A stretch of DNA of 64,000 nt from Burkholderiaceae bacterium. GTDB taxonomy: Bacteria > Pseudomonadota > Gammaproteobacteria > Burkholderiales > Burkholderiaceae_E. Made by a program: the position numbers and the translations under genes. The notes under the pieces are model-generated. The model saw only the letters and a list, made by a program, of their open reading frames with translations, did no database searches and had not been told where the DNA came from. Where the stretch lies: NCBI GenBank assembly GCA_023954045.1, contig JAMLIR010000022.1:1-64000 (forward strand), given 5' to 3'. Shown one piece after another: positions 20,373 to 39,738 of the stretch (its first letter is position 1; every line of letters starts with the position of its first letter).

Positions 20373-20379
20373 CCAGGAC

Positions 20380-20414
20380 GGAGAAGGGAGAAAGGAGAAG
20401 GGAGAAGGGGGAAG
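20380..20414 (+). repeat. Five tandem polypurine heptamers (GGAGAAG type)
   Basis: Five consecutive 7-bp units, GGAGAAG, GGAGAAA, GGAGAAG, GGAGAAG and GGGGAAG, start 7 bases after the thiolase stop and end 8 bases before the hydrolase ATG. Every unit contains a Shine-Dalgarno-like GGAG or GGGG. Confidence 0.9.
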
Positions 20415-20422
20415 CGGGCGTC

Positions 20423-21352: not shown

Positions 21353-21400
21353 GGAAACGGCGTCCCGGACCCCCGCGCCGCCACCCCAGGAGAACGGACG

Positions 21401-22242: not shown

Positions 22243-22641
22243 TCAGTCCGGGGGCAGCGGCCGCGGGCGGCGCTCGTCGTCGGTCGCCACGTAGGTGAGC
22301 GTCGCCTCGGTGACCTTGACGATCTCGTCGACCATCTGGTTGCGCTGCGCGTAGACATCGACGAAGACGGTGATCGAAGTGCGGCCGACGCGCACCACTT
22401 CGGCGTAGAAGCTGAGCACGTCGCCGACGAACACCGGATGCTTGAACAGGAACGAGTTGACCGCGATCGTGGCGACGCGGCCGTTGGCGCGGCGGATCGC
22501 CGGCAGCGCGCCGGCCATGTCGACCTGAGCCATGATCCAGCCGCCGAAGACGTCACCGTGGACGTTGGCGTCGGCGGGCATCGGCACCACGCGGAGTTCG
22601 GGGATGCGGCCTGGGGGCAGCTTCGTCGGCGTGGTTTCCAT
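22243..22641 (-). CDS. Acyl-CoA thioesterase (YciA/hotdog family)
   Basis: 132 residues. VPMPADANVHGDVFGGWIMAQVDMAGA at about 19-45 is the YciA-type hotdog signature with the conserved Asn/His-Gly-Asp arrangement; FLFKHPVFVGDVLSFYAEV and RNQMVDEIVKVTEATLTYVA complete the fold. YciA-type enzymes hydrolyse a range of acyl-CoA esters in the cytoplasm. The start METTPTKLPPGRIP at 22641 was chosen because upstream in-frame codons run into the divergent ABC exporter promoter region. The gene stands convergent to the enoyl-CoA hydratase and divergent from the exporter. Confidence 0.9.
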   Translation of the reverse strand: METTPTKLPPGRIPELRVVPMPADANVHGDVFGGWIMAQVDMAGALPAIRRANGRVATIAVNSFLFKHPVFVGDVLSFYAEVVRVGRTSITVFVDVYAQRNQMVDEIVKVTEATLTYVATDDERRPRPLPPD

Positions 22642-22702
22642 GGTCGTGGGGACAGGATGGCGAAGTTGGGCCCAGAATAACGGTTTGCCTGCGAAACGCA
22701 CA

Positions 22703-24598
22703 ATGCGCCGAGCCACCGTCCTCGATGCTCCTGCGGCGCCGGGCGCCCCTGCGGTGCGCGGCGACTGGCACACGATCGCGCGACTTCTGCCCTACCTGTG
22801 GGCCTATCGCTGGCGCGTGGGCCTGGCGCTCGCCAGCCTGGTCGCCGCGAAGTTCGCCAACGTGGGCGTGCCGCTGGTGCTCAAGCAGATCGTCGACGCG
22901 CTCGACCTGAAGCCGGGCGATGCGCGCGCCGCGCTGGTGGTCCCGGTGGCGCTGCTGGTCGCCTACGGGCTGCTGCGGGTCGGCGTCACCCTGTTCACCG
23001 AGCTGCGCGAGGTCATCTTCGCACGCGTCACCCACGACGCGTCGCGCACGATCACGCTGCAGGTGTTCCGGCACCTGCTGTCGCTGTCGCTGCGCTTTCA
23101 CCTCGAGCGCCAGATGGGTGGCATGTCGCGCGACATCGAGCGGGGCTCGCAGGGCATCTCCAGCCTGATTTCCTACACGCTCTACAGCATCCTGCCGACG
23201 CTGGTGGAGATCGCGCTCGTCATCGGCTACCTGGTCGTCCACTACGAGGGCTCTTTCGCGGGGATCGCGCTTGCGGCGCTGGCGCTCTACGTCGCCTATA
23301 CCGTCCGGGTCACCGAGTGGCGCACCAAGTACCGGCGGCAGGTGAACGAACAGGATTCGCGCGCCAACACGCGGGCGATCGACGCGCTGATCAACTACGA
23401 GACGGTCAAGTACTTCGGCAACGAGGAGTTCGAGGCGCGCCGCTACAACGAGAACCTCGTTGCCCGGATGCGCGCGGCCATTCGCGCACAGACCTCGCTG
23501 TCGGTGCTCAACCTCGGCCAGAGCCTGATCATCGCGACCGCGGTGACGCTGCTGATCTGGCGTGCGACCGCCGGCGTGGTCGCAGGCACGATGAGCCTCG
23601 GCGACCTGGTGCTGGTGAACGCCTTCATGATCCAGCTCTACGTCCCGCTCAATTTCCTCGGCGTGCTGTACCGCGAGATCAAGCAGGCGCTCACCGACAT
23701 GGAGCGGATGTTCCGCCTGATGGGCGAGCATCGCGAGGTCGCCGACGCGCCCGGCGCGCCGGCGCTCGCGCTGCAGCCGCGTCGCGCGCCGCTGATACGC
23801 TTCGAGCGCGTCTCGTTCGCCTACGATCCGGCGCGCCCGATCCTGCACGAGGTCGATTTCGCGATGGCGCCGGGGACCACCACCGCGGTGGTCGGCGCCA
23901 GCGGCGCAGGCAAGTCGACGCTGGCGCGGCTGCTGTACCGCTTCTACGACGTGGGATCGGGGCGCATTGCCATCGACGGCCAGGACCTGCGCGAGGTCAC
24001 GCAGGCGAGCCTGCGCGCGGCGATCGGCATCGTTCCGCAGGATACGGTGCTGTTCAACGACACGATCCGCTACAACATCGGCTACGGGCGTCCCGGGGCG
24101 GAGCAGCCGGAGATCGAGGCGGCCGCGCGCGCCGCGCAGTTGCACGACTTCATCTCGGGGTTGCCGCTGGGCTACGACAGCAACGTCGGCGAGCGCGGGC
24201 TGAAACTCTCGGGCGGCGAGAAGCAGCGGGTGGCGATCGCGCGCACGCTGCTGAAGGATCCGCCGATCCTGATTCTCGACGAGGCGACGTCGGCCCTCGA
24301 CAGCCGCAACGAGCAGGCGATCCAGGACGCGTTGCGGCGCGTCGCTGTCGACCGAACCACGCTGGTGATCGCCCATCGGCTGTCGACGATCGTCGACGCA
24401 GACCAGATCCTGGTGATGTCCGGCGGGCGCGTGGTCGAGCGCGGCAACCACGAGTCGCTTTTGCGCGCGGGCGGCGAATATGCGCGGCTCTGGGCGATGC
24501 AGCAGGCCGACGACGCATCGCCTGCCGGCGAATTGCCCGGAGCCGGCGACGAAGCGGGCGCGCGAACCGGCGCGGTGAAGCTCAGCGCGAGGGCTTGA
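22703..24598 (+). CDS. Atm1/HMT1-like ABC exporter (fused permease and ATPase)
   Basis: 631 residues with one membrane domain (six segments, about residues 25-330) and one nucleotide-binding domain (about 365-600). The line ALINYETVKYFGNEEFEARRYNE near 232 is the hallmark of the Atm1/HMT1 subfamily, which moves glutathione-linked or metal-thiol conjugates. In the ATPase: Walker A GASGAGKSTLARLLYRF, Q-loop GIVPQDTVLFND, signature LSGGEKQRVAIA, Walker B ILILDEATSAL and the H-loop in LVIAHRLSTI, all intact. The protein probably works as a homodimer in the inner membrane. The start is ATG 22703; only 61 bases separate it from the divergent thioesterase. Confidence 0.92.
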   Translation: MRRATVLDAPAAPGAPAVRGDWHTIARLLPYLWAYRWRVGLALASLVAAKFANVGVPLVLKQIVDALDLKPGDARAALVVPVALLVAYGLLRVGVTLFTELREVIFARVTHDASRTITLQVFRHLLSLSLRFHLERQMGGMSRDIERGSQGISSLISYTLYSILPTLVEIALVIGYLVVHYEGSFAGIALAALALYVAYTVRVTEWRTKYRRQVNEQDSRANTRAIDALINYETVKYFGNEEFEARRYNENLVARMRAAIRAQTSLSVLNLGQSLIIATAVTLLIWRATAGVVAGTMSLGDLVLVNAFMIQLYVPLNFLGVLYREIKQALTDMERMFRLMGEHREVADAPGAPALALQPRRAPLIRFERVSFAYDPARPILHEVDFAMAPGTTTAVVGASGAGKSTLARLLYRFYDVGSGRIAIDGQDLREVTQASLRAAIGIVPQDTVLFNDTIRYNIGYGRPGAEQPEIEAAARAAQLHDFISGLPLGYDSNVGERGLKLSGGEKQRVAIARTLLKDPPILILDEATSALDSRNEQAIQDALRRVAVDRTTLVIAHRLSTIVDADQILVMSGGRVVERGNHESLLRAGGEYARLWAMQQADDASPAGELPGAGDEAGARTGAVKLSARA

Positions 24599-25148
24599 GC
24601 GGACCGGGAGCGCGCGGCGATGGCAGCGGGCGCCCTCCCGGCGGCGGCGGCCGGTGGGGCCCGGCCCCCGGCGCGGGCAGGCGGCGGTGGTGGTCGTAGC
24701 CGCCGTACCACCAGAGGCCGAAGGTCATCGGCACCCATGGATACCAGCCGTAGTAGTAGCCGGGCACCACGGTGACCGGCGGCGCTGCGACGACCCCCGC
24801 GGCGGGCGGCGCCGCCCTCAACATGTCTTCGGATTCGTCGCGGACCGCGTCGACCAGCTCGCTGCCGGCACCTTCGCGCAGCAGCAGGTCGATGTCGGCG
24901 CCGCGGGCCGGCGCGAGCAGGCCGCGCTCGCGGATGTCGGCGGCCAGGTCGGCCTGCGGGCGGCCGGCGCGCAGTTCGGCGACGATCTCGCCGACGCTCA
25001 GCGGCGCGGGCACTGGCGCATAGGCGCCGGGGATCGCAGTGACTTCGCCGTAGCGCACGCCTTGCGAAACGGCGCATCCGCCCAGGGCAAGGACGATTGC
25101 CGTTGCCGCCGCCACGCCGCCGACCCGCGAGCTTGCAGTCCGATCCAT
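24582..25148 (-). CDS. Putative lipoprotein with a Tyr/Trp/Gly-rich middle and Pro-rich tail
   Basis: 188 residues. It starts MDRTASSRVGGVAAATAIVLALGGCAVSQ, a lipoprotein signal with the lipobox LGGC near residue 25. The mature part has a helical stretch LSVGEIVAELRAGRPQADL (about 51-69) and DIDLLLREGAGSELVDAV, then an aromatic segment PGYYYGWYPWVPMTFGLWWYGGYDHH near 128-153 and a Pro/Arg-rich end. I do not recognise the family. The pattern of an aromatic Gly/Tyr patch before a proline tail recalls small outer-membrane lipoproteins of betaproteobacteria. Its 3-prime end overlaps the convergent exporter gene by 17 bases. Confidence 0.75.
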   Translation of the reverse strand: MDRTASSRVGGVAAATAIVLALGGCAVSQGVRYGEVTAIPGAYAPVPAPLSVGEIVAELRAGRPQADLAADIRERGLLAPARGADIDLLLREGAGSELVDAVRDESEDMLRAAPPAAGVVAAPPVTVVPGYYYGWYPWVPMTFGLWWYGGYDHHRRLPAPGAGPHRPPPPGGRPLPSPRAPGPLKPSR

Positions 25149-25221: not shown

Positions 25222-25920
25222 TCAATGCGCGAACTCGCGAACGACGATCCGCCGGGCAGCGCCTTCGTGGACGACGCAGGCCTTGTGCAGATCGTCGATC
25301 TCGAGGTCGGCGAAGCGCCAGCGGCGGCCGGTCCCGCCCGGGCTGCGATCGTAGGCGAGCGCCGGCTCGCCGTGGCTGCCGGAAACGATGCCGATGTCGG
25401 GCAGCGAACGGCTCAAGCCTTCGCCGAGCGCCTTGACGTAGGCCTCCTTGCGAACCCACACCGTGGCGAGCGCGGCGGCGCGGCAGGGTTCCGGCGCGGA
25501 CAGCACCAGCCTGCGCTCTTCGGGCGACAGGACCCAGAGGAAATCGTCGATCCTGGCGAAGTCCGGGCGCACCCGTTCCACGTCGACGCCCACCTCGACG
25601 TCGGCGACGACGTGCAGCACCCATCGGCCGGAGTGGCTGGAGTTGAAGTGCGGGAGCCGGGGGTGCGCGCCCGGCCGCAGCGCGGGCTTGCCGTGCCGGC
25701 CCTCGACGAAGGCCAGCGTCCCGGCATCGACGCCGAGTCGCCTGGCCAGCAGCAGCCGGCGAGTGCTCCGGCCGACGACGAAGCGCTCGCGGTCCTCGTC
25801 GCGATGGAAGCGCGCGGCGCGCGCCGCCTCGTCCGCGGTCAGCCTCGCGAGATGCGCGTCGAAGCGGCCGACTTCGACGGCGACGTCGACCTTCCAGACT
25901 TCAGGCATCGGCCCCGGCAT
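25222..25920 (-). CDS. Sfp-type 4'-phosphopantetheinyl transferase
   Basis: 232 residues. It moves 4'-phosphopantetheine from CoA to the serine of carrier domains, here presumably the four T domains of the upstream NRPS. Motifs: HFNSSHSGRWVLHVV (about 91-105), GVDVERVRPD with the Mg2+-binding Asp/Glu (111-120), and WVRKEAYVKALGEGL (155-169), the WxxKEAxxK signature. The length fits the Sfp class rather than AcpS. The annotated ATG 25920 overlaps the end of the 50-codon ORF by 20 bases; an internal ATG at 25908 (MPEVWK) overlaps it by 8 and may be the true start. Coupling to the preceding ORFs puts it in the NRPS operon. Confidence 0.92.
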   Translation of the reverse strand: MPGPMPEVWKVDVAVEVGRFDAHLARLTADEAARAARFHRDEDRERFVVGRSTRRLLLARRLGVDAGTLAFVEGRHGKPALRPGAHPRLPHFNSSHSGRWVLHVVADVEVGVDVERVRPDFARIDDFLWVLSPEERRLVLSAPEPCRAAALATVWVRKEAYVKALGEGLSRSLPDIGIVSGSHGEPALAYDRSPGGTGRRWRFADLEIDDLHKACVVHEGAARRIVVREFAH

Positions 25921-26053
25921 GCGCCTGCCTCGTCCCGGCGGCCTCGGGGTTCAGCCGCACGCAGGTGGCCGGGCGCGTCGCGGCCAGGGTCGCCGGCACG
26001 GTTTGCGCGTCGGGTATCGCCGGGATGTTCTGCGGATGCGTCTGGATCGTCAT
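25901..26053 (-). CDS. 50-codon ORF embedded between the NRPS and the phosphopantetheinyl transferase
   Basis: The ATG at 26053-26051 overlaps the NRPS stop codon as ATGA, and the ORF ends at 25901, inside the start region of the transferase gene. An AGGGA lies seven bases before the ATG. The product begins MTIQTHPQNIPAIPDAQTV, is rich in Pro, Ala and Thr, and has one Cys near residue 31. It is not an MbtH-like protein (no Trp residues, no NxExQxS motif, and shorter than the usual ~70) and matches no family I know. Reading-frame continuity at both ends argues that it is translated; a spurious ORF in a 130-base linker remains possible. A peptide substrate, a carrier accessory or merely a coupling spacer are all open. 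Confidence 0.5.
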   Translation of the reverse strand: MTIQTHPQNIPAIPDAQTVPATLAATRPATCVRLNPEAAGTRQAHAGADA

Positions 26054-29000
26054 CCGGACGTCCCTACGCCGTGCAGTGATCGTGGCGCGCCGCCGGCTGC
26101 GCGATCCAGCCTGCGTCCCTCGACGCGCCCCGGCTGCGAGGCGCCGGGAGCTTCGTCGCCCCCGATGGCCTCGGCGAGGATCCGGGCGAGCTCCGCCACG
26201 TGCGGGGTATGCAGCATGCGGTTGTGCAGGCAGTACATCGAGCGCAAGTCGACGCCGTCGCCGCTGAGGGCGCCCCAGCCGTAGGTCGGATCGGAATCCG
26301 GTACCACTCCGACGAGGGGCGCCCGCTCCTCGGCGCGGATGAGCAGCACCCGCCCCGGATAGTGGTGCGGCTGGTAGGAGCGCCAGGCGGAGAACACGGC
26401 GCGGGCCGATTGCTCCATGGCGAGCGTGACCGCGGTGCGCTCGACCTCCTCGCCGTCGAACAAGCCGCGGTCGCGCCCGAGCAGGTGGCGCAGCATCCAG
26501 CGGGCGCGGCCCCCGAGGTAGGCGAGCATCTGCGCCGGGCGCATGCGCAGCGCTTCGCGCAGGTGCAGCAGCACACGCACGGGGGCGGAGCGGCGCTGTG
26601 TCCAGCCGGACACGCTGGTATCGAGGATCGCCAGCACCGCGACGCGTTCGCCGCTGCGGTGCAACTGCTGCGCGATCTCGTGGACGATCTTGCCGCCCAT
26701 CGAATAGCCGGCGAGCCGGTAGGGGCCGGTCGGCTGGGCCCGGCGCAGGTCCTCGACCATGCGGGCGGCGATCGCTTCCACGGTCAGGCCGGATTCGTCG
26801 GCCCCGAACACACCGGTGTCGAGCACGTGCAGCGTCTGGTGCGGCCCGAACGCCTTGGCGAGGTCGTTCAGGATGATCAGCTGCCCGCCCCATCCCGACA
26901 CGAAGAACAGCGGCCGGGTTCCATCGCCGCCCTGGACGGTGACCACGCACGACGGGCGCGCGAGGGCCGCGGACTCGTCGCGCAGCAGCGCCGCGAAGCG
27001 GCGGATGGTCGGCGCCTCGAAGAACGACGCGGTGCGCAGCTGCCGGCCCATGCGCCGGTCGACTTCGGCGAGCACGCGCACGGCGAGCATCGAGTGTCCG
27101 CCCAGCTCGAAGAAGTCGGCGTCCAGCGAAATTCCCCGGACGTTCAGTACCGACTCCCAGATCTCGCGGAGCTCGCGCTCCACGGCGTCGGCCGGCGCGT
27201 CGTCGGCCGGTAACGCAGCGGCCGGCGGCGCCGGCAGCGCCCGGCGGTCGAGCTTGCCGTTGGCGGTGAGGGGCAGGGCGTCGAGCGCGACGAACGCCGC
27301 CGGGATCATGAACGAGGGCAGGCGTTCGGCGAGCGCGACGCGCAGTTGCGCGAGCGACAGCCTCGGCGCGCCGACAGACCAGACGAGGTACGCGACCAGG
27401 CGGTGTTCGCCAGGGCGGTCCTCGCGCATGAGCAAGGCCGACTGCGCGACGCCGGGCAGTGCGGCGAGCGCAGCGCGCACCTCGCCGAGTTCGATGCGGA
27501 AGCCGCGCAGCTTCACCTGCTCGTCGTTGCGGCCGAGGAACACGATATTGCCGTCGGCCAGACGGCGCACGCGGTCGCCGCTGCGGTACAAGCGCTGCCC
27601 CGCCGCGAAGGGATCGGGCACGAAGCGCTCGGCGGTGAGCTCGGGGCGCTCGAGGTAGCCTCGTGCCAGACCCGGACCGCCGATATAGAGCTCTCCGGGC
27701 GCGCCGATGGGCACCGGCTGCATCGTCTCGTCGAGCACGTGGCAGGTGGTGTTGGCGATCGGCCGGCCGATGGGAACGGTGTCCGGGGCCCTGTCGCGTG
27801 CCGGCTGGCGCGGCACTTCGTACCAGGTGGCGAAGGTCGTGGTCTCGGTGGGGCCGTACACGTGCAGCAGGCGCTGCGGGGGCCGGTTGCGCAGGACGCG
27901 GGCGACCGCTTCCGGGTCCACCGCCTCGCCGCCGAACAGCAGTTCGCGCAGGCCGTGGAAGACCCCGGGTGCACGAGCCGCGTGCTCGTTGAACAGCGCC
28001 GTGGTCACGAACATCGTGGTAATGCGGTCGCGGGCGATCTGACGCTCGAGGGCGGCTGCGGAGAGCAGGGTCTCGGTGGAGACGACGGCCACCCGGGCGC
28101 CGTTGAGCAGCGCGCCCCAGATCTCGAAGGTGGCGGCGTCGAACGACGCGTTCGAGGCCTGCCCGATGCAGTCGTCGGGCCCGAGGCTCACGTAGTCGGT
28201 GTGGCACACCAGGCGCACGACCGCGCGGTGCGGGACCATCACGCCCTTCGGCCTGCCGGTCGAGCCCGAGGTGTAGACGAGGTAAGCGAGGTGTTCGGGT
28301 CGGCACGTCGCGACGGGGTTGTCGACCGGCTCGGCCCGCAATGACGGGTCGTCGTCGAGGCAGAGCAGCCGCGAGGCGACCCCGGCCAGGCGCGGCGCCA
28401 GCGACTTCCCGACGATCGTGACCGCGGCGGCCGAGTCGGCCAGCATGAAGGCGACGCGCTCGAGCGGGTAGTCGACGTCGATGGGCACGTAGGCGCCACC
28501 GGCCTTCAGGATGCCGAGCATCGCAACGATCATGTCGGGGCCGCGCCGCAGGAACATGCCCACCGGCGCGTCCGGACCCACGCCGAGCCGGCGCAGCCGG
28601 TGCGCGAGCCGGTTGGCGCGGCGGTTCAGCGTCGCGTAGTCGAGCCGTTCGTCTTCGCAGACGATCGCGACGGCCTGCGGCGTGCGCGCGACCTGCTCCT
28701 CGAAGAGCTGCGGCAGGCTCGCCCCTTCGGGATAGGCGCGGGTGCTGTCGTTGAACCCGGCGACGAGGCGCTCGCGTTCCGCGGCGTCGAGCATCGGGAT
28801 TGCGGAGAGCCGGGCCTGCGGCGCGGCGACGACCGCGTCGAGCAGGTTGCGCAGGTGCGCGCCCATGCGCTCGACGGTGGCGTGGTCGAACAGGTCGCGG
28901 TTGTAGGCAAAGTGCAGCGCGAGGCGATCGCCGCGCAGGGTCGCCGATAGCGACAGGTCGAACTTGGCCCGGCTCGAGCCGATCGGTACGCGTTCGGCCT

Positions 29001-32000
29001 GCAATCCGGACAGCGGCCGCGGGGCCTCGTCGCCAGCCTCCATCGCGAAGGTCACCTGGAAGAGCGGACTGCGTCCCGGCTCGCGCGGCGGGTTCACCGC
29101 GGCGACGATGCGCTCGAAGGACACGTCGCGGTTGGCCCAGGCGTCGAGCGTGTCGCGGCGCACCCGCGCGAGCAGTTCGACGAAGGTCGGATCGTCCGCG
29201 AGGCTCGAGCGCATCGGCTGCATGGCGACGAAGTAGCCGACCAGGCCCTCGAGCTCGGCGCGGTCGCGCCCGCCGTTCGGCGTCCCGACGACGACGTCGC
29301 CGCCCGCGCCGTAGCGCGCCAGCAGGACTCGCAGCGTCGACATCAGCACCATGTAGGGCGTCGCGCCGTTGCGCCGCGCCAGGGACGCGAGGGAACGGGT
29401 GGTGTCCGGGAGGATCGCGACCGTGTGTCCGGCTGCGCCGAGTCTCGCGGTCGCGGGGCGGGGCCGATCGAACGGCAGGTCGTGGTCCGGCGCGCCCGAC
29501 AGGTGCGAGACCCAGTACTGCAACTGTCGCTGGAACCGCGGCCCGCTGCATTTCGCCCGGCTCCAGATCGCGTAGTCGAGAAAGCTGACCGGCAGCGGCG
29601 GCAGCACCGCGTCGAGCCTGGCACCCGAGAGCGCAGCCTCGTACAGGACCCCGAGTTCCCGCTCGACGATCGCCGTGGACAGGCCGTCCGTGACGATGTG
29701 GTGGGCGACCAGCAGCAGCACATGATCGTTCGGCGACCTGCGCAGCAGTTTCGCGCGCAGCGGGCGGCCGGCGGCGAGGTCGAACGGCTCGTGCGCCGCC
29801 AGTTTCAGTCGTGGCATGGCCGGATAGAGTCCGCCGGCAGCGGCGCTCCCCGTCCCGATGTCTACGACCTCGAAGTCGGGCTCATCGTCGTCGAGCACGA
29901 ATTGTGCAGGTACGCCGTCGACTTCGCGAAACGCGGTGCGAAGCGCGGCGTGCCGTCGCACCAGTGCGCTCAGCGCGGCCTGCAGCGCCGCTACCTGCAG
30001 CGGTCCTTGCAGGCGCAGCGCGAAGGGCACGTTGTACCGGCTGCCATTGTCGCCGTCGACCTGCTCGACGATCCACAGCGCTTCCTGGGCGGAGCTCAGG
30101 GGGCCGGAGAGGGCACCGGTGGGGACGAGGGGCGCGACCGGCTCGGCGGCGCCGGCGCGTTGGCCGGGGTCGAGCGACTCGACGTGGGCGGCCAGACCGG
30201 CGATGGTGGGCGCTTCGAAGAGCACGCGCAGGGGCAGCTCGACGCCGAGCAGGCGGCGGGTGCGCGCCATGACCTGGGTGGCCGAGAGGGAGTGGCCGCC
30301 GAGTTCGAAGAAGTCGTCGTGCACGCCCACGCGCTCGCGCCCGAGGACCTCGGCCCAGATGGCGGCGAGGGCTTCCTCGAGAGGGGTGCGCGGGGCCGCG
30401 AAGGAGGCGGTCGCGGCGGCGTCCTCGAGCGGTGCGGGCAGCGACTTGCGGTCGAGCTTGTCGTTGGGCAGGCGCGGCAGTGAGGGCAGGGCCACGACGA
30501 CGGCGGGCACCATGAACTCCGGCAGGCGCGATTTCAGGGCGGCCTTGAGGGTGGCCGCTTCGAGGTTGTCGCCCTCGACGTAGGCGACCAGGCGGCGCTC
30601 GCCGGGGCGGTCCTCGCGGGCGAGCACGACGCTCAGGCGCACGCCCTCGCAGGCGTTCAGCGCGGATTCGATTTCGCCCAGTTCGATGCGAAAGCCGCGG
30701 ATCTTGATCTGGTCGTCGGTGCGGCCGACGAAGGCGACGATGCCGTCGGGGCGCCAGCGCACGAGGTCGCCGGTGCGGTAGAGGCGATCGCCGGCGACGA
30801 AGGGGCTGTGCAGGAAGCGCTCGGCGGTGAGCTCGGGCCGGCTGAGGTAGCCGCGCCCGACGCCGGCGCCGCCGACGTAGAGCTCACCGGCCGCGCCCAC
30901 GGGTACGGGCTGCATGTGCGCATCGAGAACGTAGAGCCGGGCGTTGGCGATGGGGCGGCCGATGGGCACGGGGCCGGGGCCCTCGGCGAGTTCGGCGACG
31001 TCGACGCTGGTGGCATCGACGCTGGCCTCGGTCGGCCCGTAGAAGTTCCCCAGCGTCGCTCGCGGGAGGCAGCGCGAGAAACCGCGCGCGGTTTCCGGGT
31101 CGAGGGCTTCGCCGCCGGCAATGACGTAGCGCAGGCTGGTGCACGAGTTCAGCGCGGGCTCGAGCAGCAGCGCGCGCAGTGCCGAGGGCACGACCTGCAG
31201 CAGGGTGACGCCGTGGGCGGCGATGGCCTGCGCGAGGTATTCGGGGTCCTTCTCGCCGCCGGGGCGGGCGAGCACCACACTGGCACCGACCGACAGTGGC
31301 GGGAATATCTCCACCAGTGAGGCATCGAAGCTGATCGAGGTCTTCTGAAGCACGCGGTCGCGGGTGCTCATGCCGAGGCGTTCGGCAACCCACAAGGTGT
31401 GGTTGACCACGCCGCGGTGCGGGATCATCACGCCCTTGGGTCGACCGGTGGAGCCGGAGGTGTAGATCACGTACGCGAGGTGCTCGGGGCGCGCCAGCGG
31501 CGGGAGGTTGCCCCGAGGCTCGTCGTCCAGGGTGGGATCGTCGTCTACGCACAGCGTCGTCGACAGTGCGGACGGCATGCGCGGGGCGAGCACTCTCTGC
31601 GTGAGGATGACCGGCGCGTTGCTGTCGGCGAGCATGAACGCGATGCGTTCGGCGGGGTAATCCGCATCGATGGGTACGTAGGCGCCGCCGGCCTTGAGGA
31701 TGGCCAGCATTCCGACGATCATCGCGACGCTGCGCTCCATGCACAGGCCGACCAGGACGTCGGGTCCGACGCCCGAGCGGCGCAGGCGGTGAGCGAGCTG
31801 GTTGGCCCGGCAGTTCAGCGCGTCGTAATCCAGGCGCTGGTCGTCGCCGACGACAGCGGTGGCCCCGGGCGTGCGCTCGGCCTGCTGCTCGAAGAGCTGG
31901 TGCAGCGTCAGGTGCAGCGGGTAGTCACGTGCGGTGTCGTTCCAGCGCACCAACAGGCGTTCGCGCTCGGCGGCATCCATCAGCGGCAGCTGCGAGAGTC

Positions 32001-35000
32001 GCGCCTGCGGGTCGGCGATCATGCCCTCGACCAGGTTGCACAGGTGCCCCGCCATCCGCTCGATCGTCGCCTCGTCGAACAGGTCGGCCGCGTACTCGAG
32101 GGATCCGTCGAGGCCCGTGCTGCGCTCGACGAAGGTCAGCGAAAGGTCGAACTTGGCGCTGGCGGCATCGCTCCCGACGGAAGCCGCGTCGAGCCCGGGA
32201 AGCGCCAGAGTGGTGGGTGGCACGTTCCACAGCGCGAACGACACCTGGAACAGCGGGTTGCGGTTGACTTCCCGCTGGGGATTGAGCTCGGCGACGATGC
32301 GCTCGAAGGGCAGCTCCTGGTGGGCGTAGGCCTCGAGGGCGGTGGCGCGGGTGCGCTCCAGCAGCTCGACGAAGGTGGGATCACCGTCGAGGTCGGTGCG
32401 CATGACCAGCATGTTGACGAACATGCCGAAGACGCCTTCGAGCTCGGGGCGTCCGCGCCCGGCAACGGGGGTGCCCACACCGAAGTCGCGCTGCCCGGTG
32501 TACCGCATCAGCAGGGTCTGGAACGCGGCAAGCAGCACCATGTGCAGCGTGGCGCGGCGCGCGCGTGCGAGCGACTTGAGGGCGGCCAGCGTGCGTGGAC
32601 CCAGCGAGAACTCCAGGCGTCGACCGCGTAGCGACCCGGTGCGCGGGCGCGGACGGTCGTTGGGCAACTCGATGGGCTCCAGGCCGGCGAGTCGCTCCCT
32701 CCAGTAGGCGAGCGCGGCCTGCGCGGCGCCGCCGGCCAGGCGGCGGCGCTCCCACAGCGCGTAGTCGGCGAACTCGAGCCGGGGCGCCCCCGCGGGCAGG
32801 GCGAGCGGTTCGCCGCGCAGCGCGCGTCCGTAGAGCAGCGGCAGCTCGCGCGCGAGGATGCCCATCGACCAGCCGTCCGCAACGATGTGGTGCACGACGA
32901 ACATCAGCACGTGGTCGCGCTCCGAAACACGCAGCAGCTGCACCCTGAACAGCGGTGCGCGTGCCAGGTCGAAGGGCTCGGCGAAGAGTCGCTGCAGGTG
33001 CACGTCGATGGCGGCCTGGATCGACTCGCCGGCGCCTGGGTCCGGTTCGATCACGGGCAATTGCACCTCGACTTGCGCGAGCACGCGCTGCACCGGTGCC
33101 CCGTCGACGTCCTCGAAGGCGGTTCGCAGGGCGGCATGCCGCTCGACGAACGCCTCGAGCGCGCTGCGCAGCGCGGCGACGTCGAGCTCGCCAGTGAAGC
33201 GGGCGGCCGACGCGATGTTGTACACCCCGCTGGGGCCGGCGAGCTGCTCGATGGCCCATAGCGCTTCCTGCGCCGCGGATGCCGGCGCGAACTGCGCCTC
33301 GGCCGCGGCACCGGCCACCAGCGGCACCTCGTCCTCGCCCTGACCGACTCCGGCCCGCGGCAGGATTGGCGGGGCGGCCTCGGGTTCCGAGGGAAGGATT
33401 TCCGGCGCCGTCGTGGTGGCGTCGTCTGCGGTGGGGTGCGTGGAGCAGGTCGCTTCGATGCGAGCTGCGAGTTCGGCGACCGTGGGGGCTTCGAACAGGG
33501 CGCGCAGGGCAACGTTCGCTCCGAGCGCGGCGTTGGCGCGGGCGAGCGCGCGCGTGGCGGCCAGCGAGTCTCCGCCCAGGTCGAAGAAGTCGTCGTGGAC
33601 GCCGATGAGCGGCAGGTCGAGGATCTCGCGCCAGATCGCGGCGAGCGATCGTTCGAGCTCCGACCTCGGCTCGACGTAGTCGCTCTCCTGCGACGACCAG
33701 TCAGGGGCCGGCAGCGCTTTGCGGTCGACCTTGCCGTTGGGCAGCAGAGGCAACGCGTCGAGCAGACACCAGGCACCCGGAACCATGGGCCGCATGACTC
33801 GTTGCCTGAGGAATCGGCGCAGTTCGAGCGCATCCGGCGGGTTGTTGCCGCTGGACGTGTAGTAGGCCACCAGCGCCGGTTCTCCGCGCGGGTTCGGGCG
33901 CGCCACGACCGCACACTCCCGAACGCGATCGTGCCGCGCGAGCGTCGCCGCGACTTCGCCGGGTTCGACCCGCACGCCGCGGATCTTGACCTGATCGTCG
34001 AGCCGGCCGCAGATCTCGAGCAAGCCGTCCGGGCGGTAACGCCCGCGGTCGCCGGTGAAGTAGACCAGGTCCGAGGGGTCGCTGCCGAAGGGGTTCGGCC
34101 GGAAGCGGCGCCGGTTCTCCTCGGGGAGATTCAGGTACCCGAGCGTCGAGTAGGCCGTTCGCAGCGCAATCTCGCCGGGTTCGCCGATGCCGCACAGCCC
34201 GCCGCCGGCGTCGATCACCAGGGCCTGGCTCTGCGGAATCGGCGCGCCGATCGGCTGGATGCCGGGCTCCACGTCGTCCGGCACGTCGTATACGCACCGG
34301 ATCATCGTGGTTTCGGTGGGGCCGTAGAAGTTGGCCATCCTGCTCGTGCGGCCGGGGCCGCTGCGCCACTTCCCGACCAGCGCGTCGTTGAGCGGCTCGC
34401 CCGAGAGGAACAGCCAGCGCAGGTCGACCAGGGCGTCGTGCGCAGCAGGCCGGGCGAGCCACGACTGCACCACCGCGGGCGTCGAATGCACGAGCGTCAC
34501 CCGTTCGCGCCGCAGCCAGGCGATCGGGTCGGGCAGGTCGGCGGCCTCGGGCAGGCACAGGGTCGCGCCGCTGGTGAGCGGCAGGAACACGTCGCGCAGC
34601 AGCGGGTCGAACGACAGGCCGATCAGCTGCGAAACCCGGTCGTCGGCGCCGACTTCGTAGCGCCGTCTCTGCCACGCCAGGAAGTGCGCGAGGCTCTTGT
34701 GGCGGCCGAGGACCGCCTTCGGCGTGCCGGTGCTGCCGGAGGTGAAGAAGACGTAGGCGGGATCGTCGCCGTCGACGCCGCACGCGTCGTCTGCCGGATA
34801 CTCGTCCGGTCGCTCCGCTCGCCACGCCTCGCCCAGGCGCACGACCTCGAGGTGGGGGTACTCCGCCGGCACGTCGTAGCCGTCGGGGGCGAGCAGCAGC
34901 CGCGCTGCGCACTCCCGCACCATCGTGCGCCGGCGCTCCAGAGGAAGGGTCGGGTCGAGCACGAGGAACGCCGCGCCGCTCATCAGCACCGCCAGCATCG

Positions 35001-38000
35001 CCTGCACGAGCGCCGGGCTCGAAGGAACCTGGATCGCGACGATGTCGCCGCGGCCGACGGCCCGCTCGCGAAGCAGCGATGCGGTCGCCGAGGAGCGGGC
35101 CGCGAGTTCGGCGTAGGTCTGGTGTCCGTCGCCGCGGTCCAGTGCGATTCGCCCGGGTGCGCGCCGCGCGTGCTCCAGGAAGGCCTCGTGCACCGGCACC
35201 TGCGGTTCGACCTGCATCCGGCACACGGGATCGGGGAGCATTCGTCGCGCCGCGTCGGTGACGAGCGAATAGGCGTGCACTCGCGCGTCGGGCTCGGCAA
35301 CGATCTGCCCGAGCAGGGCCACGTACTGCCGCAGCATCTCCTCGGCGCGCGCCGACGAGAACAGGTCGCTCCGGCAGGTCAGGGTGAGGTGCAGCTCCGC
35401 CTGGCGGAGCTCTGCGTAGAGCGTCATCGCGAACTTCGGCCGCGCCCACCACCGCTCCACGCTCTGGCAGTCCAGCCCCGGCAATTCGAGCGCGCCGAAG
35501 TCGCCGTCCATGAAATTGATCATCACGTCGAACAGCGGATTGCGGTCGGCGTGGCGCTCGGGGGCCAGTTCGCTGACCAACCGTTCGAACGGGACCTGCT
35601 GGTGCTCGAAAGCGTCGAGCATCGTCTGCAGCGAGCGGCCGAGCAATTGCCGGAACGGCGGGTTGCCCGACAGGTCGGTGCGCACGACCAGCGGATTCAC
35701 GAAGTACCCGACCACGTCCTCGAGCTCGCTTCGCGGGCGCCCGGTCACCGGTGTGCCGACAGCGAAGTCCTCACGGCCGGACAGGCGCATCACCAGGACC
35801 TGGTACGCGGCGAGCATGACCGTGAAGAGCGTCGCGCGTTCGCGCTGCGCCAGCGCCTTGAGCGGCATCACCAGCGACGCCGGCAGCACCGCTCGCGGCG
35901 TGCGCGCGGGCGTCCCGATGCGGCCGTGCGCAGGCCGGTCGCGTGGCAGCTCCAGCGGTTCGAGGCCCGCCAGTTGCTCGCGCCAGTAGGCCAGGTCGCG
36001 CGCTCCCTCGGGCGAGTCGAGGCGCCGGCGCTGCGCCGCCGCGTGATCGATGTACTGCGCGACCGGTGCAGGCAGCGATGGCTCGCGTCCCGAGGACAGC
36101 GCTGCGTACAGCGTGCGCAGATCGCGCGCGACGATCCCTGCCGACCAGCCGTCGGTGACGATGTGGTGCGTCACCATCAGGAGCACGTGATCGTCGGGGG
36201 TCATGCGCACGAGGAGGGCGCGCAGCAGCGGCGGTCGGCTCAGGTCGAACGGCTGCGTCGCTGCGGCCGCAAGCAGATCGTGGAGCGACCGCTCGCGCTC
36301 GTCGGCGGTGCGGCCAGCGGCTTCGACGACCTCGAGACCGGCTTGCGCCGCCGGCTCCACGACCTGGACAATGCCGTCGACGGTCTCCCGCAAGGCGGTG
36401 CGAAGGCAGGGGTGGCGCGCCACGAGGGTGTCGAGGCTGCGGGCAAGCGCGTCGACGTTCAATTCTCCGCGAATGCGGACGAGTTGCGGCAGGTGGTACA
36501 GGTCGCTCCGGCCGTTCAGCCGCTCGGTGATCCACAGCGCTTCCTGGGCGGGACTCAGCGGTCCGGACAGAGCGCTGGCGGGGGCGAGGGGCGCAACGCC
36601 GGCGGCGGCGTGGGCGCACTGCGCGGGGTCGAGCGCTCCGATGCGTGCAGCCAGTTCAGCGACATTGGGGGCTTCCACCAGGGCACGCAGGGGTAGCTCG
36701 ACACCCAGGATGCGGCGGGTGCGCGCGATGATCCGGGTGGCGCCGAGCGAGTGCCCGCCGAGGTCGAAGAAGTTCTCGTGCACACCCACGCGCGCACACC
36801 CCAGCACGTCGGCCCAGATGTCCGCCAGGGTCTGCTCCAGCGGCGTGCGCGGGGCCACGAACGCCTGCGCTTCGCCCAGCGCGCCCGCCTCGGGCGCCGG
36901 CAGCGCGTTGCGATCGACCTTGCCGTTGGGCGTCAGCGGCAGCGCCTGCATCGGCACGAAGTACTGCGGCACCATGTAATCGGGCAGGGTGTGCCTCAGG
37001 CTCCTGCGCAGCTCCGCGCCCGACACCGACTGCCCGGCCAGCGGCACCAGGTACGCCACCAGCGCCGCTGCTCCCGTGTGATCCGCGCGGGCGTCGACCA
37101 CCGTCTGGGCGATTCCCGCGCAGGCCGTCAGCGCCGCCTCGATCTCCCCCAACTCGATCCGGAACCCGCGGATCTTCACCTGATGATCCAACCGTCCCAG
37201 GTGTACGACGTCCCCGTCGGCCCGGTAGCGCGCCAGATCCCCGGTCCGGTACAACCGTGCCCCGGGCTGATCCGAAAACGGATCCGCGATGAACTTCTCG
37301 GCCGTCAGCTCGGGTCGCCCGCGGTAGCCCCGCGCCAATCCGTCACCGCCGATCAGCAACTCGCCGGCCACGCCGATCGGCACCGGCTGCAGCGCCTTGT
37401 CCACGACGTGGAACGTCGTGTTGGCGATCGGCCGGCCCACCGTGATCTGCTCGGCCGCACTGCGCACGCGCTTCACCGACGACCAGATCGTCGTCTCCGT
37501 TGGGCCGTACAGGTTCCATAGCGCCCTCGTGCGCTCCAGCAGCGGCTGCACCAGCCCGGGCGGCAGCGGCTCGCCTCCGATCAGCGCCGTCAGCCCCTGG
37601 CTGCCCGTCCATCCGGCATCGATCAACATCCGCCAGGTCGCCGGCGTTGCCTGCAACAGCGTGGGATTCACTTGCTCGATGCGCTCGCGCAGCAACTGGC
37701 CGTCGGTGGCGGCTTCCCGGCTCACCAACTCCACTCGCGCACCGGTGATCAGCGGCAGGTACAGTTCCAGCCCCGCGATGTCGAACGACAGCGTGGTCAC
37801 CGCCAGCAACACGTCACGCTCGTCGCATCCGGGTTGCGTGCGCATCGAGCACAGGAAGTTCGTCAGCGCCCGGTGCGTGATCTCGACACCCTTGGGCTTG
37901 CCTGTCGAGCCCGACGTGTACAGCACGTACGCCAGGTCGTCCGGCCCTGCTGCGGGCGGCAGATCCTCCCCGTCCACGAGATCGCCCGGTGCGAGGTGGT

Positions 38001-39738
38001 CCAGGTCCACCACCCGGACCGCGCCCACCGGCAGCAATCCCGCCAGACTGGTCTGCGTCAGCAGCACCGAGGCCTGCGAGTCTTCCAGCATGAACGCCAG
38101 CCGCTGCGCCGGGAAGACCGGGTCGAGCGGCACATAGGCGCCACCGGCCTTCAGCGTCGCCAGCAGCCCCACCATCATCTGCAGCGAGCGCTCGAGGCAA
38201 AGGCCCACCAGGGCGCCGGGGCGTACCCCGAGTGCGCGCAGGCGTACCGCCAGCGCGTTCGCGCGCGCGTTCAACTCCCGGTAGCTCAGCGACTCCCCGG
38301 CATGCGTCACCGCCACCGCATCCGGAAGCCGTGCCGCCTGCTCCTCGAACAACTGCACGACCGTGCGATCCCGCGGGTAATCGACCCGCGTGCCGTTCCA
38401 TGCGTTCAGAAGGCTTCTTTCGCCCTCGTCGAGGAGCATGATGGTCCGGACAGGACGAGCCGGATCCTCGAGGCACGCATCCAGGACGTTCTCGAAGTGG
38501 CGAACGACTCGCGGCCGGTCCTCGGGCGCAAAGACGTCGCAATTCAGGTCGAACTCGACGGCGAAAGCCCCAGTTCCGCCAAGGCTGTGAACCTGGAGCG
38601 CCATGCTCCCTTCACCGACCCTGGAGTGATGGATCGATGTCCTCACGGCCATTCCGGCAAAGCTGCCGAGGGACTGAGTCTGGAAATTCAGCACCACGCT
38701 GTACAGCTTTCCGCCCGGATTTCCCACCGCGTACGGAACGTGCTGCCTGACCTCCAGCGCTTCCTCCTGGACCTTGCGCACGACCGCCTCGAACGTTTCG
38801 TCCGGGCCAATCGATACCGTGAACGGCGCCTGCACCATCAGCAGCCCCGCCGTATCTGCAAACCGACGCGGGCGGTTGCGCCACGGAACCCCGATCGTCA
38901 CGCGGTCGCTGCCGGAGATGCGGTGCAGGTAGACGAACAGGGCTGCGGCGAACACACTGAAAACGGCCATTTGCTCAGAGGCTGCACCCGCGCCGGACCG
39001 GCGAGCCAGTTGCCTGATCGCTTCCGAGCGGTCCGTTCCCAATTCGTGGTGAATTCGCTCCTGGGCCTTGCTGCTCAGAAACGTCTCGGCAGATACGCCG
39101 TAGAAAGTGAGCGGTCCCCGAGCCCCTTCGGTCTTGCGAGTCCAGAACTGCTCATCCTCGGTGAACTCGCTCGTTCCCCGGTACTGCCGCTCGAACTCCA
39201 GGTACTCGAGAAAACCCGGGTACGCAGTTCCGGACGCGGGCTCTCCCTCCAGCAGCCGTGCATAGCAGTCGGCGACACGCTGGAACAGGATGCCGTTGGA
39301 GGTGGCGTCCGTGAGGATGTGGTGCTGCACGAAATACCAGGCATAGCGGTCTTCGGCGAGCTTGATCAGCGCCGTCTCGTACCAGCGTTGCGCCAGGTCG
39401 AACGCGATCCCCGCGTGGCCCGTGACCCAGTCCTCGAGAGCCCGATCCGGATCGACTTCCTGCGACAGGTCCACGAAAGCCGGCGAGTGCGCCACGTGAT
39501 CCCGGACCCGCAGGAACGGAACCCCGTCGCGTTCCTCGATCACCATGCGAAGGACATCGGTGCGATCCGCGACCACCTGGAAGGCCCTGTCGAAATGCTG
39601 CCGCTCGACCGGACCGTCTATGACGAACACGGCGACTTCGTTGTATATCGGCAGCCCCGGCCACAGCCGGTGGCCAGTCCAGATGAGCAGCTGATTCCGC
39701 GTGAGGTTGCTGCCCAGGTGCGTAGCGCTGGCCGTCAT
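26050..39738 (-). CDS. Four-module nonribosomal peptide synthetase with starter C domain and terminal thioesterase
   Basis: 4562 residues from ATG 39738 (AGGA five bases upstream), order C-A-T, C-A-T, C-A-T, C-A-T-TE. Approximate landmarks: C1 HHILTDA at 139; A1 TSGSTGKPKG near 606, T1 Ser997; C2 HHIVTDG at 1191; A2 TSGSTGTPKA near 1664, T2 Ser2058; C3 HHIVADG at 2283; A3 TSGSTGRPKG near 2757, T3 Ser3150; C4 HHIVTDG at 3346; A4 near 3822, T4 Ser4216; TE elbow GYSMGG, Ser4346. No epimerisation, methylation or cyclisation domain was seen. Pocket residues read by eye: A1 DILQLGLIWK (as for Gly), A2 DPRHFSFMIK (unassigned), A3 DAVQIGFVDK (perhaps Gln/Glu-like), A4 DAFFLGVTFK (Ile/Val-like). A leading C domain suggests N-acylation, so an acyl-tetrapeptide is the working inference. 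No acyl ligase is adjacent. It should act in the cytoplasm after activation by the downstream transferase. Confidence 0.97.
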   Translation of the reverse strand: MTASATHLGSNLTRNQLLIWTGHRLWPGLPIYNEVAVFVIDGPVERQHFDRAFQVVADRTDVLRMVIEERDGVPFLRVRDHVAHSPAFVDLSQEVDPDRALEDWVTGHAGIAFDLAQRWYETALIKLAEDRYAWYFVQHHILTDATSNGILFQRVADCYARLLEGEPASGTAYPGFLEYLEFERQYRGTSEFTEDEQFWTRKTEGARGPLTFYGVSAETFLSSKAQERIHHELGTDRSEAIRQLARRSGAGAASEQMAVFSVFAAALFVYLHRISGSDRVTIGVPWRNRPRRFADTAGLLMVQAPFTVSIGPDETFEAVVRKVQEEALEVRQHVPYAVGNPGGKLYSVVLNFQTQSLGSFAGMAVRTSIHHSRVGEGSMALQVHSLGGTGAFAVEFDLNCDVFAPEDRPRVVRHFENVLDACLEDPARPVRTIMLLDEGERSLLNAWNGTRVDYPRDRTVVQLFEEQAARLPDAVAVTHAGESLSYRELNARANALAVRLRALGVRPGALVGLCLERSLQMMVGLLATLKAGGAYVPLDPVFPAQRLAFMLEDSQASVLLTQTSLAGLLPVGAVRVVDLDHLAPGDLVDGEDLPPAAGPDDLAYVLYTSGSTGKPKGVEITHRALTNFLCSMRTQPGCDERDVLLAVTTLSFDIAGLELYLPLITGARVELVSREAATDGQLLRERIEQVNPTLLQATPATWRMLIDAGWTGSQGLTALIGGEPLPPGLVQPLLERTRALWNLYGPTETTIWSSVKRVRSAAEQITVGRPIANTTFHVVDKALQPVPIGVAGELLIGGDGLARGYRGRPELTAEKFIADPFSDQPGARLYRTGDLARYRADGDVVHLGRLDHQVKIRGFRIELGEIEAALTACAGIAQTVVDARADHTGAAALVAYLVPLAGQSVSGAELRRSLRHTLPDYMVPQYFVPMQALPLTPNGKVDRNALPAPEAGALGEAQAFVAPRTPLEQTLADIWADVLGCARVGVHENFFDLGGHSLGATRIIARTRRILGVELPLRALVEAPNVAELAARIGALDPAQCAHAAAGVAPLAPASALSGPLSPAQEALWITERLNGRSDLYHLPQLVRIRGELNVDALARSLDTLVARHPCLRTALRETVDGIVQVVEPAAQAGLEVVEAAGRTADERERSLHDLLAAAATQPFDLSRPPLLRALLVRMTPDDHVLLMVTHHIVTDGWSAGIVARDLRTLYAALSSGREPSLPAPVAQYIDHAAAQRRRLDSPEGARDLAYWREQLAGLEPLELPRDRPAHGRIGTPARTPRAVLPASLVMPLKALAQRERATLFTVMLAAYQVLVMRLSGREDFAVGTPVTGRPRSELEDVVGYFVNPLVVRTDLSGNPPFRQLLGRSLQTMLDAFEHQQVPFERLVSELAPERHADRNPLFDVMINFMDGDFGALELPGLDCQSVERWWARPKFAMTLYAELRQAELHLTLTCRSDLFSSARAEEMLRQYVALLGQIVAEPDARVHAYSLVTDAARRMLPDPVCRMQVEPQVPVHEAFLEHARRAPGRIALDRGDGHQTYAELAARSSATASLLRERAVGRGDIVAIQVPSSPALVQAMLAVLMSGAAFLVLDPTLPLERRRTMVRECAARLLLAPDGYDVPAEYPHLEVVRLGEAWRAERPDEYPADDACGVDGDDPAYVFFTSGSTGTPKAVLGRHKSLAHFLAWQRRRYEVGADDRVSQLIGLSFDPLLRDVFLPLTSGATLCLPEAADLPDPIAWLRRERVTLVHSTPAVVQSWLARPAAHDALVDLRWLFLSGEPLNDALVGKWRSGPGRTSRMANFYGPTETTMIRCVYDVPDDVEPGIQPIGAPIPQSQALVIDAGGGLCGIGEPGEIALRTAYSTLGYLNLPEENRRRFRPNPFGSDPSDLVYFTGDRGRYRPDGLLEICGRLDDQVKIRGVRVEPGEVAATLARHDRVRECAVVARPNPRGEPALVAYYTSSGNNPPDALELRRFLRQRVMRPMVPGAWCLLDALPLLPNGKVDRKALPAPDWSSQESDYVEPRSELERSLAAIWREILDLPLIGVHDDFFDLGGDSLAATRALARANAALGANVALRALFEAPTVAELAARIEATCSTHPTADDATTTAPEILPSEPEAAPPILPRAGVGQGEDEVPLVAGAAAEAQFAPASAAQEALWAIEQLAGPSGVYNIASAARFTGELDVAALRSALEAFVERHAALRTAFEDVDGAPVQRVLAQVEVQLPVIEPDPGAGESIQAAIDVHLQRLFAEPFDLARAPLFRVQLLRVSERDHVLMFVVHHIVADGWSMGILARELPLLYGRALRGEPLALPAGAPRLEFADYALWERRRLAGGAAQAALAYWRERLAGLEPIELPNDRPRPRTGSLRGRRLEFSLGPRTLAALKSLARARRATLHMVLLAAFQTLLMRYTGQRDFGVGTPVAGRGRPELEGVFGMFVNMLVMRTDLDGDPTFVELLERTRATALEAYAHQELPFERIVAELNPQREVNRNPLFQVSFALWNVPPTTLALPGLDAASVGSDAASAKFDLSLTFVERSTGLDGSLEYAADLFDEATIERMAGHLCNLVEGMIADPQARLSQLPLMDAAERERLLVRWNDTARDYPLHLTLHQLFEQQAERTPGATAVVGDDQRLDYDALNCRANQLAHRLRRSGVGPDVLVGLCMERSVAMIVGMLAILKAGGAYVPIDADYPAERIAFMLADSNAPVILTQRVLAPRMPSALSTTLCVDDDPTLDDEPRGNLPPLARPEHLAYVIYTSGSTGRPKGVMIPHRGVVNHTLWVAERLGMSTRDRVLQKTSISFDASLVEIFPPLSVGASVVLARPGGEKDPEYLAQAIAAHGVTLLQVVPSALRALLLEPALNSCTSLRYVIAGGEALDPETARGFSRCLPRATLGNFYGPTEASVDATSVDVAELAEGPGPVPIGRPIANARLYVLDAHMQPVPVGAAGELYVGGAGVGRGYLSRPELTAERFLHSPFVAGDRLYRTGDLVRWRPDGIVAFVGRTDDQIKIRGFRIELGEIESALNACEGVRLSVVLAREDRPGERRLVAYVEGDNLEAATLKAALKSRLPEFMVPAVVVALPSLPRLPNDKLDRKSLPAPLEDAAATASFAAPRTPLEEALAAIWAEVLGRERVGVHDDFFELGGHSLSATQVMARTRRLLGVELPLRVLFEAPTIAGLAAHVESLDPGQRAGAAEPVAPLVPTGALSGPLSSAQEALWIVEQVDGDNGSRYNVPFALRLQGPLQVAALQAALSALVRRHAALRTAFREVDGVPAQFVLDDDEPDFEVVDIGTGSAAAGGLYPAMPRLKLAAHEPFDLAAGRPLRAKLLRRSPNDHVLLLVAHHIVTDGLSTAIVERELGVLYEAALSGARLDAVLPPLPVSFLDYAIWSRAKCSGPRFQRQLQYWVSHLSGAPDHDLPFDRPRPATARLGAAGHTVAILPDTTRSLASLARRNGATPYMVLMSTLRVLLARYGAGGDVVVGTPNGGRDRAELEGLVGYFVAMQPMRSSLADDPTFVELLARVRRDTLDAWANRDVSFERIVAAVNPPREPGRSPLFQVTFAMEAGDEAPRPLSGLQAERVPIGSSRAKFDLSLSATLRGDRLALHFAYNRDLFDHATVERMGAHLRNLLDAVVAAPQARLSAIPMLDAAERERLVAGFNDSTRAYPEGASLPQLFEEQVARTPQAVAIVCEDERLDYATLNRRANRLAHRLRRLGVGPDAPVGMFLRRGPDMIVAMLGILKAGGAYVPIDVDYPLERVAFMLADSAAAVTIVGKSLAPRLAGVASRLLCLDDDPSLRAEPVDNPVATCRPEHLAYLVYTSGSTGRPKGVMVPHRAVVRLVCHTDYVSLGPDDCIGQASNASFDAATFEIWGALLNGARVAVVSTETLLSAAALERQIARDRITTMFVTTALFNEHAARAPGVFHGLRELLFGGEAVDPEAVARVLRNRPPQRLLHVYGPTETTTFATWYEVPRQPARDRAPDTVPIGRPIANTTCHVLDETMQPVPIGAPGELYIGGPGLARGYLERPELTAERFVPDPFAAGQRLYRSGDRVRRLADGNIVFLGRNDEQVKLRGFRIELGEVRAALAALPGVAQSALLMREDRPGEHRLVAYLVWSVGAPRLSLAQLRVALAERLPSFMIPAAFVALDALPLTANGKLDRRALPAPPAAALPADDAPADAVERELREIWESVLNVRGISLDADFFELGGHSMLAVRVLAEVDRRMGRQLRTASFFEAPTIRRFAALLRDESAALARPSCVVTVQGGDGTRPLFFVSGWGGQLIILNDLAKAFGPHQTLHVLDTGVFGADESGLTVEAIAARMVEDLRRAQPTGPYRLAGYSMGGKIVHEIAQQLHRSGERVAVLAILDTSVSGWTQRRSAPVRVLLHLREALRMRPAQMLAYLGGRARWMLRHLLGRDRGLFDGEEVERTAVTLAMEQSARAVFSAWRSYQPHHYPGRVLLIRAEERAPLVGVVPDSDPTYGWGALSGDGVDLRSMYCLHNRMLHTPHVAELARILAEAIGGDEAPGASQPGRVEGRRLDRAAGGAPRSLHGVGTSG

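Follow-up and report, generated by a model that had tools for sequence, protein, structure and literature searches.

A single-gene, predicted tetrapeptide synthetase headed by a putative starter condensation domain at a variable site of a Burkholderiaceae genus

Introduction

A condensation (C) domain at the very beginning of a nonribosomal peptide synthetase (NRPS) raises the question of what is joined to the first amino acid, and from where this partner is taken. The locus considered here lies in a window of 64,000 nucleotides (the whole stretch of DNA that was analysed) from a Burkholderiaceae bacterium and poses the question in a compact form, with one NRPS gene of four modules and its leading C domain, C1. 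An earlier interpretation, hereafter the sequence-only reading, had taken C1 for a starter C that acylates the first residue. The answer favoured here, with a probability of roughly two in three, is a stand-alone NRPS which, as judged from its sequence, would make an N-acylated or otherwise N-capped tetrapeptide by starter-C initiation, at a variable NRPS site of the genus. The literature drawn on comprised parts of PMC7804268 and of PMC11546977.

The synthetase gene and its assembly

The NRPS locus is real and single, probably complete, and of a known kind. The gene (26050..39738, minus strand) encodes 4562 amino acids with the order (C-A-T)x4-TE, in which Pfam counts four Condensation, four AMP-binding, four AMP-binding_C, four PP-binding domains and one Thioesterase; the architecture given in the sequence-only reading, four C-A-T modules and a TE in one protein, is thus borne out by both ORF and Pfam. 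The frame runs without internal stop over 26050-39966, with a TTG at 39966 and an ATG at 39738, the latter yielding the 4562 residues and being the likelier start, since the longer version runs into the divergent ORF of a flippase (Polysacc_synt_3; PF13440, PF01943; 39849..41516, plus strand). At the C-terminus, the TE (26188..26784, minus strand; PF00975) carries the GxSxG motif as GYSMGG, is of type I, and shares 84% identity with a TE of the congeneric genome G014, while an epimerization (E) domain was absent from the NRPS protein according to Pfam.

The assembly amounts to 4.02 Mb in 50 contigs and is 97.16% complete. Its search with PF00668 returned four matches, every one inside the NRPS gene, and therefore no second NRPS is seen; the N-terminal C domain has no upstream module in the assembly as searched, and a module encoded elsewhere, looked for among these C domains, was discarded as a candidate. 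Among eight PP-binding matches four lie within the NRPS gene, and of the others one is a 117-aa frame, one is an AMP-binding/acyltransferase fusion, and two are weaker, at 26-30 bits. On contig C49 (L077:3485-6319), a 944-aa protein fuses carrier, AMP-binding and acyltransferase domains. MbtH gave no match in the assembly, and a Pfam scan of 20 flanking ORFs bears out the statement that neither an acyl ligase nor an MbtH gene lies next to the NRPS gene. What the sequence-only reading had overlooked, besides the variable nature of the site, is the gene directly downstream, an Sfp/AASDHPPT-type 4'-phosphopantetheinyl transferase (PPTase; 25222..25920, minus strand; PF01648, PF22624), which follows the NRPS gene after 129 bp on the same strand; PF01648 has one further match in the assembly.

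Adenylation codes and the predicted peptide

The codes of the adenylation (A) domains were read by motif, with the last Lys taken from the alignment and position 278 by eye. This position is weak: the aligned column gave A, S, V and V for A1 to A4, and a one-residue shift was applied on the ground that it brings A1 and A4 into line with the Gly and Ile codes. All domains of the assembly line are on the minus strand. Module 1 consists of C1 (38401..39738), A1 (36862..38400; DIL-(Q)-LGLIWK, in full DILQLGLIWK) and carrier T1 (36640..36834; LGGHS, PF00550); module 2 of C2 (35236..36561; nearest to the single module of G003, 56%), A2 (33697..35235; DPR-(H)-FSFMIK, DPRHFSFMIK) and T2 (33457..33648; LGGDS, PF00550); module 3 of C3 (31951..33297; nearest in G004, 62%), A3 (30412..31950; DAV-(Q)-IGFVDK, DAVQIGFVDK) and T3 (30181..30375; LGGHS, PF00550); and module 4 of C4 (28765..30102; 76% to the last module of a G014 NRPS), A4 (27217..28764; DAF-(F)-LGVTFK, DAFFLGVTFK) and T4 (26983..27174; LGGHS, PF00550). 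The A1 code we take to be of the Gly type and that of A4 of the Ile/Val type, in agreement with the Gly at position 1 and Ile/Val at position 4 proposed before, one position having been read by eye. The odd code of A2 presumably resembles an aminoadipate-type code at its start only, and its eight motif-read positions and the Lys are identical in the A domain of G003 (67% identity overall). PDB searches with A1, A2 and A3 listed linear gramicidin synthetase entries first and gave no substrate clue, and the literature text searched held no paper combining DPRHF with 'adenylation domain' and none with DILQLGLIWK. A dual or DCL type was considered for C2 to C4 and set aside, all three falling outside the clade of the three DCL rows of the tree described below.

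The assembly line would operate as follows. The neighbouring PPTase would arm the four carrier domains; A1 would load Gly, and C1 would cap it with a carboxylic acid from a CoA (or carrier) thioester of metabolism, the donor probably being an acyl-CoA. C2 to C4 would then add a residue X selected by A2, a residue Y selected by A3 and Ile/Val selected by A4, and the TE would hydrolyse or cyclise the product, for which the flanking flippase or the ABC transporter may serve as exporter. The predicted peptide is cap-Gly-X-Y-Ile/Val, its chiral residues in L configuration, which the TE would set free as an acid, an ester or a ring.

The first condensation domain

In a phmmer search of the PDB with C1, 38 distinct sequences passed, with the starter C (Cs) domain of RzmA first (1.6e-32), followed by CDA C1 (7.8e-20), ObiF1 (3.7e-19) and PvdL (4.8e-15), and the remaining C domains lower; C3, in contrast, had Txo2 and Txo1 at the top of its list, with RzmA no better than 9.5e-19. 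CDA is the product of a large multi-gene pathway, unlike that of the single NRPS gene here. The CDA synthetase C1 (PDB 4jn3, 5du9), the first C of its synthetase and the PDB match next after RzmA, shares 20-22% identity with the window C1. The rhizomide synthetase RzmA (PDB 7c1h/7c1l), in which a starter C heads the NRPS, is the best match in fold as well: with an AlphaFold model of C1 (four-row alignment, pLDDT 71.5, pTM 0.69), the first seven Foldseek ranks went to RzmA Cs structures and the eighth to CDA C1. The identity between RzmA and C1 is about 22-26%, and HHIMMDG in RzmA is HHILTDA in C1, such that both His and the Asp of the HHxxxDG motif are kept and Gly is changed to Ala. In the motif alignment made in this analysis, Asn occupies the place of RzmA Arg148. 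The parts of PMC7804268 drawn on describe that Arg148 gates acyl length, with shorter side chains admitting longer acyls, that excised Cs domains, RzmA Cs included, use acyl-CoA, and that the first residue of RzmA is Leu, as compared with the Gly-like one of the window. An Asn at the gate position of C1 would, on this sequence comparison, impose no restriction to acetyl.

Relatives of C1 are distant. Close orthologs were found neither in 73 other genomes of the family (next best 27%, 1.6e-26) nor in 398 other genomes of the order (next best 1.2e-32), a sample drawn evenly with at most four candidates scored per genome. A pattern search of genome contigs yielded two relatives at 23 and 26%, and a plasmid search 439 records, all under 60%, with 25-29% for the 25 rows among the matches listed. 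A class-wide sample (369 genomes, own included) provided three other relatives at 34-37% (G611, G672, G752), hereafter the kin, which belong to other families of the class and carry the C1-like domain at the N-terminus.

For phylogeny, 98 C domains of at least 380 aa were assembled, namely the four of the window, RzmA, and 93 from 30 loci, labelled by position. This reference set is biased, as its rows came from loci found with C1 itself, but it nonetheless includes 55 internal C domains from those loci. Among the 97 other domains, the 12 best BLAST matches of C1 comprised RzmA and 11 domains from N-termini. In a careful maximum-likelihood tree, C1 fell into a 19-row set (support 100/99) made up of RzmA, C1 and 17 N-terminal domains; for 16 of these 17 the stretch fetched showed no NRPS gene upstream, and for one it did. 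C1 forms a long branch, and before the kin were added a tree with the other 18 starters as a clade of their own fitted about equally (p-AU 0.583). With the kin included, a 96-row tree, obtained from 115 rows of which nine were dropped and 10 near-copies thinned, placed C1 in a four-row clade (100/100) that is itself nested within 22 starter rows (100/99); forcing C1 and its kin to the LCL side cost 16.1 log units (p-AU 0.0455, a borderline rejection). These results support C1 as a starter-type condensation domain in a separate subfamily. The starter-C proposal of the sequence-only reading is upheld by the grouping of C1 with 18 N-terminal C domains, the RzmA crystal structure among them, a grouping that stayed the same with the kin; its suggested check among starter, LCL and DCL classes came down on the starter side, while the LCL-side placement that would speak against it was rejected at the borderline level given above.

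The nature of the cap

Fatty acyl groups are the default donor of Cs domains. A non-fatty cap is, however, possible in the window, because the nearest kin of C1 adjoin proline-oxidising genes rather than genes of fatty-acid metabolism. An acyl-CoA-dehydrogenase-family gene stands near the C1-like gene in all three kin. In G611, genes of the ornithine-cyclodeaminase family, of a prolyl-carrier-dehydrogenase-like protein and of a stand-alone A protein stand immediately ahead of the C1-like gene, in the same orientation. The G611 dehydrogenase has the prolyl-ACP dehydrogenase 4irn as its best PDB match (1.5e-113), and the stand-alone A protein matches, behind five gramicidin synthetase entries and one further entry, the prolyl-carrier ligase 6o6e (1.3e-89). 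In G672, dehydrogenase and A genes are divergent from a C-A-T-C gene whose last C is E-type by motif, and a related dehydrogenase, 43% identical to the G611 one, is encoded close by in G752. For both dehydrogenases scanned, those of G611 and G672, the NCBIfam PigA and RedW-type prolyl-carrier models were best, both below their cut-offs. By motif reading, the C1-like domain is followed by an E-type domain in two of the three kin, the third ending at a contig end. In the C1-like C-A-T-C(E-type) protein of G672 (L090:7004-11737), the A domain reads approximately DLTKIGEVGK by eye, which we take to be close to an Asn code; this suggests a start with an N-capped D-Asn in that protein.

It could accordingly be asked whether C1 accepts a heteroaromatic or aryl cap, e.g. 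a thioester of the pyrrole-2-carboxyl or benzoyl type, instead of a fatty acid. This is suggested by the dehydrogenase genes of the kin with their prolyl-type families, by the proline-ligase-like and ornithine-cyclodeaminase-family genes of G611, and by a C domain of a DHB siderophore NRPS within the same large starter clade as C1. Yet proline-oxidising or ligase genes of the kin type were not seen at the window site, the PP-binding matches of the assembly outside the NRPS are confined to the four described above, and the genes of the kin may supply another building block; we regard such a cap as unlikely. The uptake of acyl-CoA from the cell pool, as put forward in the sequence-only reading, stays plausible, there being no loader at the site and only 50% identity in the best match of the own assembly to one (see below); a fatty acyl group is one possible donor.

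A still less probable explanation is that C1 is ordinary or idle, with an upstream module or loader hidden in an assembly gap, or with a dead C1 and a free N-terminus. The incomplete and fragmented assembly leaves some room for it, as do the Ala for the motif Gly and the borderline AU test; a single contig, however, spans the intact site and its two flanks, the four C domains of the assembly are all in the NRPS gene, both motif His residues are retained, and the Ala is common to two of the three kin.

A variable site in the genus

The PPTase and NRPS genes of the window lie between two conserved flanks, an ABC exporter (22532..24598, plus strand) and an Iso_dh family dehydrogenase (41559..42632, plus strand), with a small putative lipoprotein gene (24582..25148, minus strand; no Pfam match) at the flank of the site. 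A survey of 18 genomes of the genus, own included, was carried out with the ABC exporter, the Iso_dh protein and the PPTase. The PPTase (51-100% identity) adjoins the exporter in seven (G000, G003, G004, G005, G008, G011, G014), and eight have an empty site with exporter and Iso_dh 0.6-1.1 kb apart on one contig (G001, G002, G007, G009, G010, G013, G016, G017); the site state was not resolvable in G006, G012 and G015, and a weak PPTase-like match in G006 (32%, on another contig) was not counted. Occupancy of the site varies among close relatives, since the nearest genome by flank identity, G013 (flanks 94 and 96%), is empty, with the small lipoprotein gene alone there (L082), and G005 (92 and 94%) is occupied. 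Just before the site of the window, a beta-oxidation run (14348-22165, plus strand) comprises acyl-CoA dehydrogenase, 3HCDH/ECH, thiolase and ECH genes, the dehydrogenase being only 27% identical to the prolyl-type one of G611. Outside the site on the other side, an 868-aa Ig-like protein (45951-48557, minus strand; Big_6, Big_13) shows an RTX repeat match, and a protein with the same domains is found inside the site interval in G011 (L069:3854-6835).

All six occupied relatives have NRPS domains at the site. There is one module in G003, two each in G008 and G011, and a broken one in G005, while the NRPS of G014 and G004 is in pieces on several contigs, those of G014 representing ends or starts of at least two NRPS genes. 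A flippase gene neighbours the NRPS here as well as in G011, in G014 and, as two frames, in G008; the stretches fetched of G003 (L073) and G005 (L074, L085) yielded none. The G008 synthetase (L068:4234-11772) has the order C-A-T-T-C-A-T-TE, with tandem carriers after module 1 and three PP-binding stretches in Pfam. The site of G011 (G011:C6:31130-83935) extends over about 53 kb and contains two loader-like genes as well as genes for a lytic-transglycosylase-like protein and another ABC exporter. In G005 (L074, L085), two loader-like genes accompany an NRPS split into short frames by decay or assembly indels.

Two ways of starting the chain

The congeneric loci share with the window the site, the PPTase, the TE and related modules, and differ from it in their start. 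Five of the six occupied relatives (G003, G005, G008, G011, G014) carry, together with the NRPS, an AMP-binding plus carrier (A-T) didomain gene, which was checked with Pfam in G003 and G008; that of G014 is on a contig with NRPS modules unlinked to the flanks, and none was found in the fragmentary G004. A FadD7-like acyl-CoA ligase model is the best NCBIfam match of five such proteins, below its cut-off, and oxalate-CoA ligase the best PDB match of the G008 loader (2.6e-108). The loaders probably load a carboxylic acid, because the amino-acid-binding Asp is missing in the four that were aligned (His in three, Gly in one). Such a loader is absent at the window site. The best match to the G008 loader in the own assembly, on contig C4, reaches 50% over query residues 6-544 of 639 and continues past a stop; it was rejected as a displaced loader, being a paralog with copies at 50-51% in G005, G008 and G014, which have the loader too.

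This difference is paralleled in the C domains. The relatives' first C domains (G003, G005, G008, G011 and both G014 genes) fall with C2 to C4 into a 14-row clade (SH-aLRT 100), from which C1, lacking any close match in these loci, stands apart; the one genus row outside that clade is the second C of G008, an identity taken from a long-branch notice. The two ways of starting therefore match two kinds of first C domain, i.e. an ordinary one behind an A-T loader, and the starter-type C1 of the window.

A break at module 1

The body of the window synthetase from T1 to TE is nearest to loci of the genus and is mosaic, with the closest A-domain matches of A4 in G014 (83%), of A2 in G003 and of A3 in G011 (65%), and it is set off by a break at module 1. 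When 120-aa stretches were compared, those starting at residues 77-437 had no genus match above 35%; the stretch at 707, in the substrate core of A1, gave 31% in the genus versus 55% elsewhere. By bit score, genus matches lead in all stretches from residue 977 and in none before, the non-genus set being the larger one. The base composition changes as well: C1 has 63.8% GC and a GC3 of 0.789, the other domains 70.1-72.9% and 0.850-0.922, and one 75-codon piece of A1 has 65.3% GC. These observations fit a native body to which a C1-A1 block of origin beyond the genus has been joined, although the A1-core part need not come from far, as its best non-genus match lies in the same family (L024, G022).

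These data can be rationalized, tentatively and as a possibility somewhat short of being favoured, by a natural switch in which loading through a ligase and carrier, combined with an ordinary C domain, gave way to a ligase-free starter C that draws on the CoA pool, the native T1-to-TE body having received a C1-A1 block of non-genus origin as a graft; C1 would represent a starter subfamily of its own, some kin of which may handle proline-derived caps. The converse, that the ancestor had the starter C, the relatives gained their loaders later and the window retains the old state, is compatible with occupied and empty sites both occurring among close relatives, yet it is improbable in view of the lower GC of C1 and its lack of a close genus match, which T1 to TE does have.

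Implications

With the C1 subfamily, starter C domains span a broader range of sequences. Sister species appear to initiate synthesis differently at this shared chromosomal position, and should the swap prove real, the junction close to where A1 ends would be a naturally selected place of exchange for NRPS initiation modules, of the kind sought by engineers. Because they range from one to four modules at a common site, the loci of this genus may offer a direct test of module exchange versus product.
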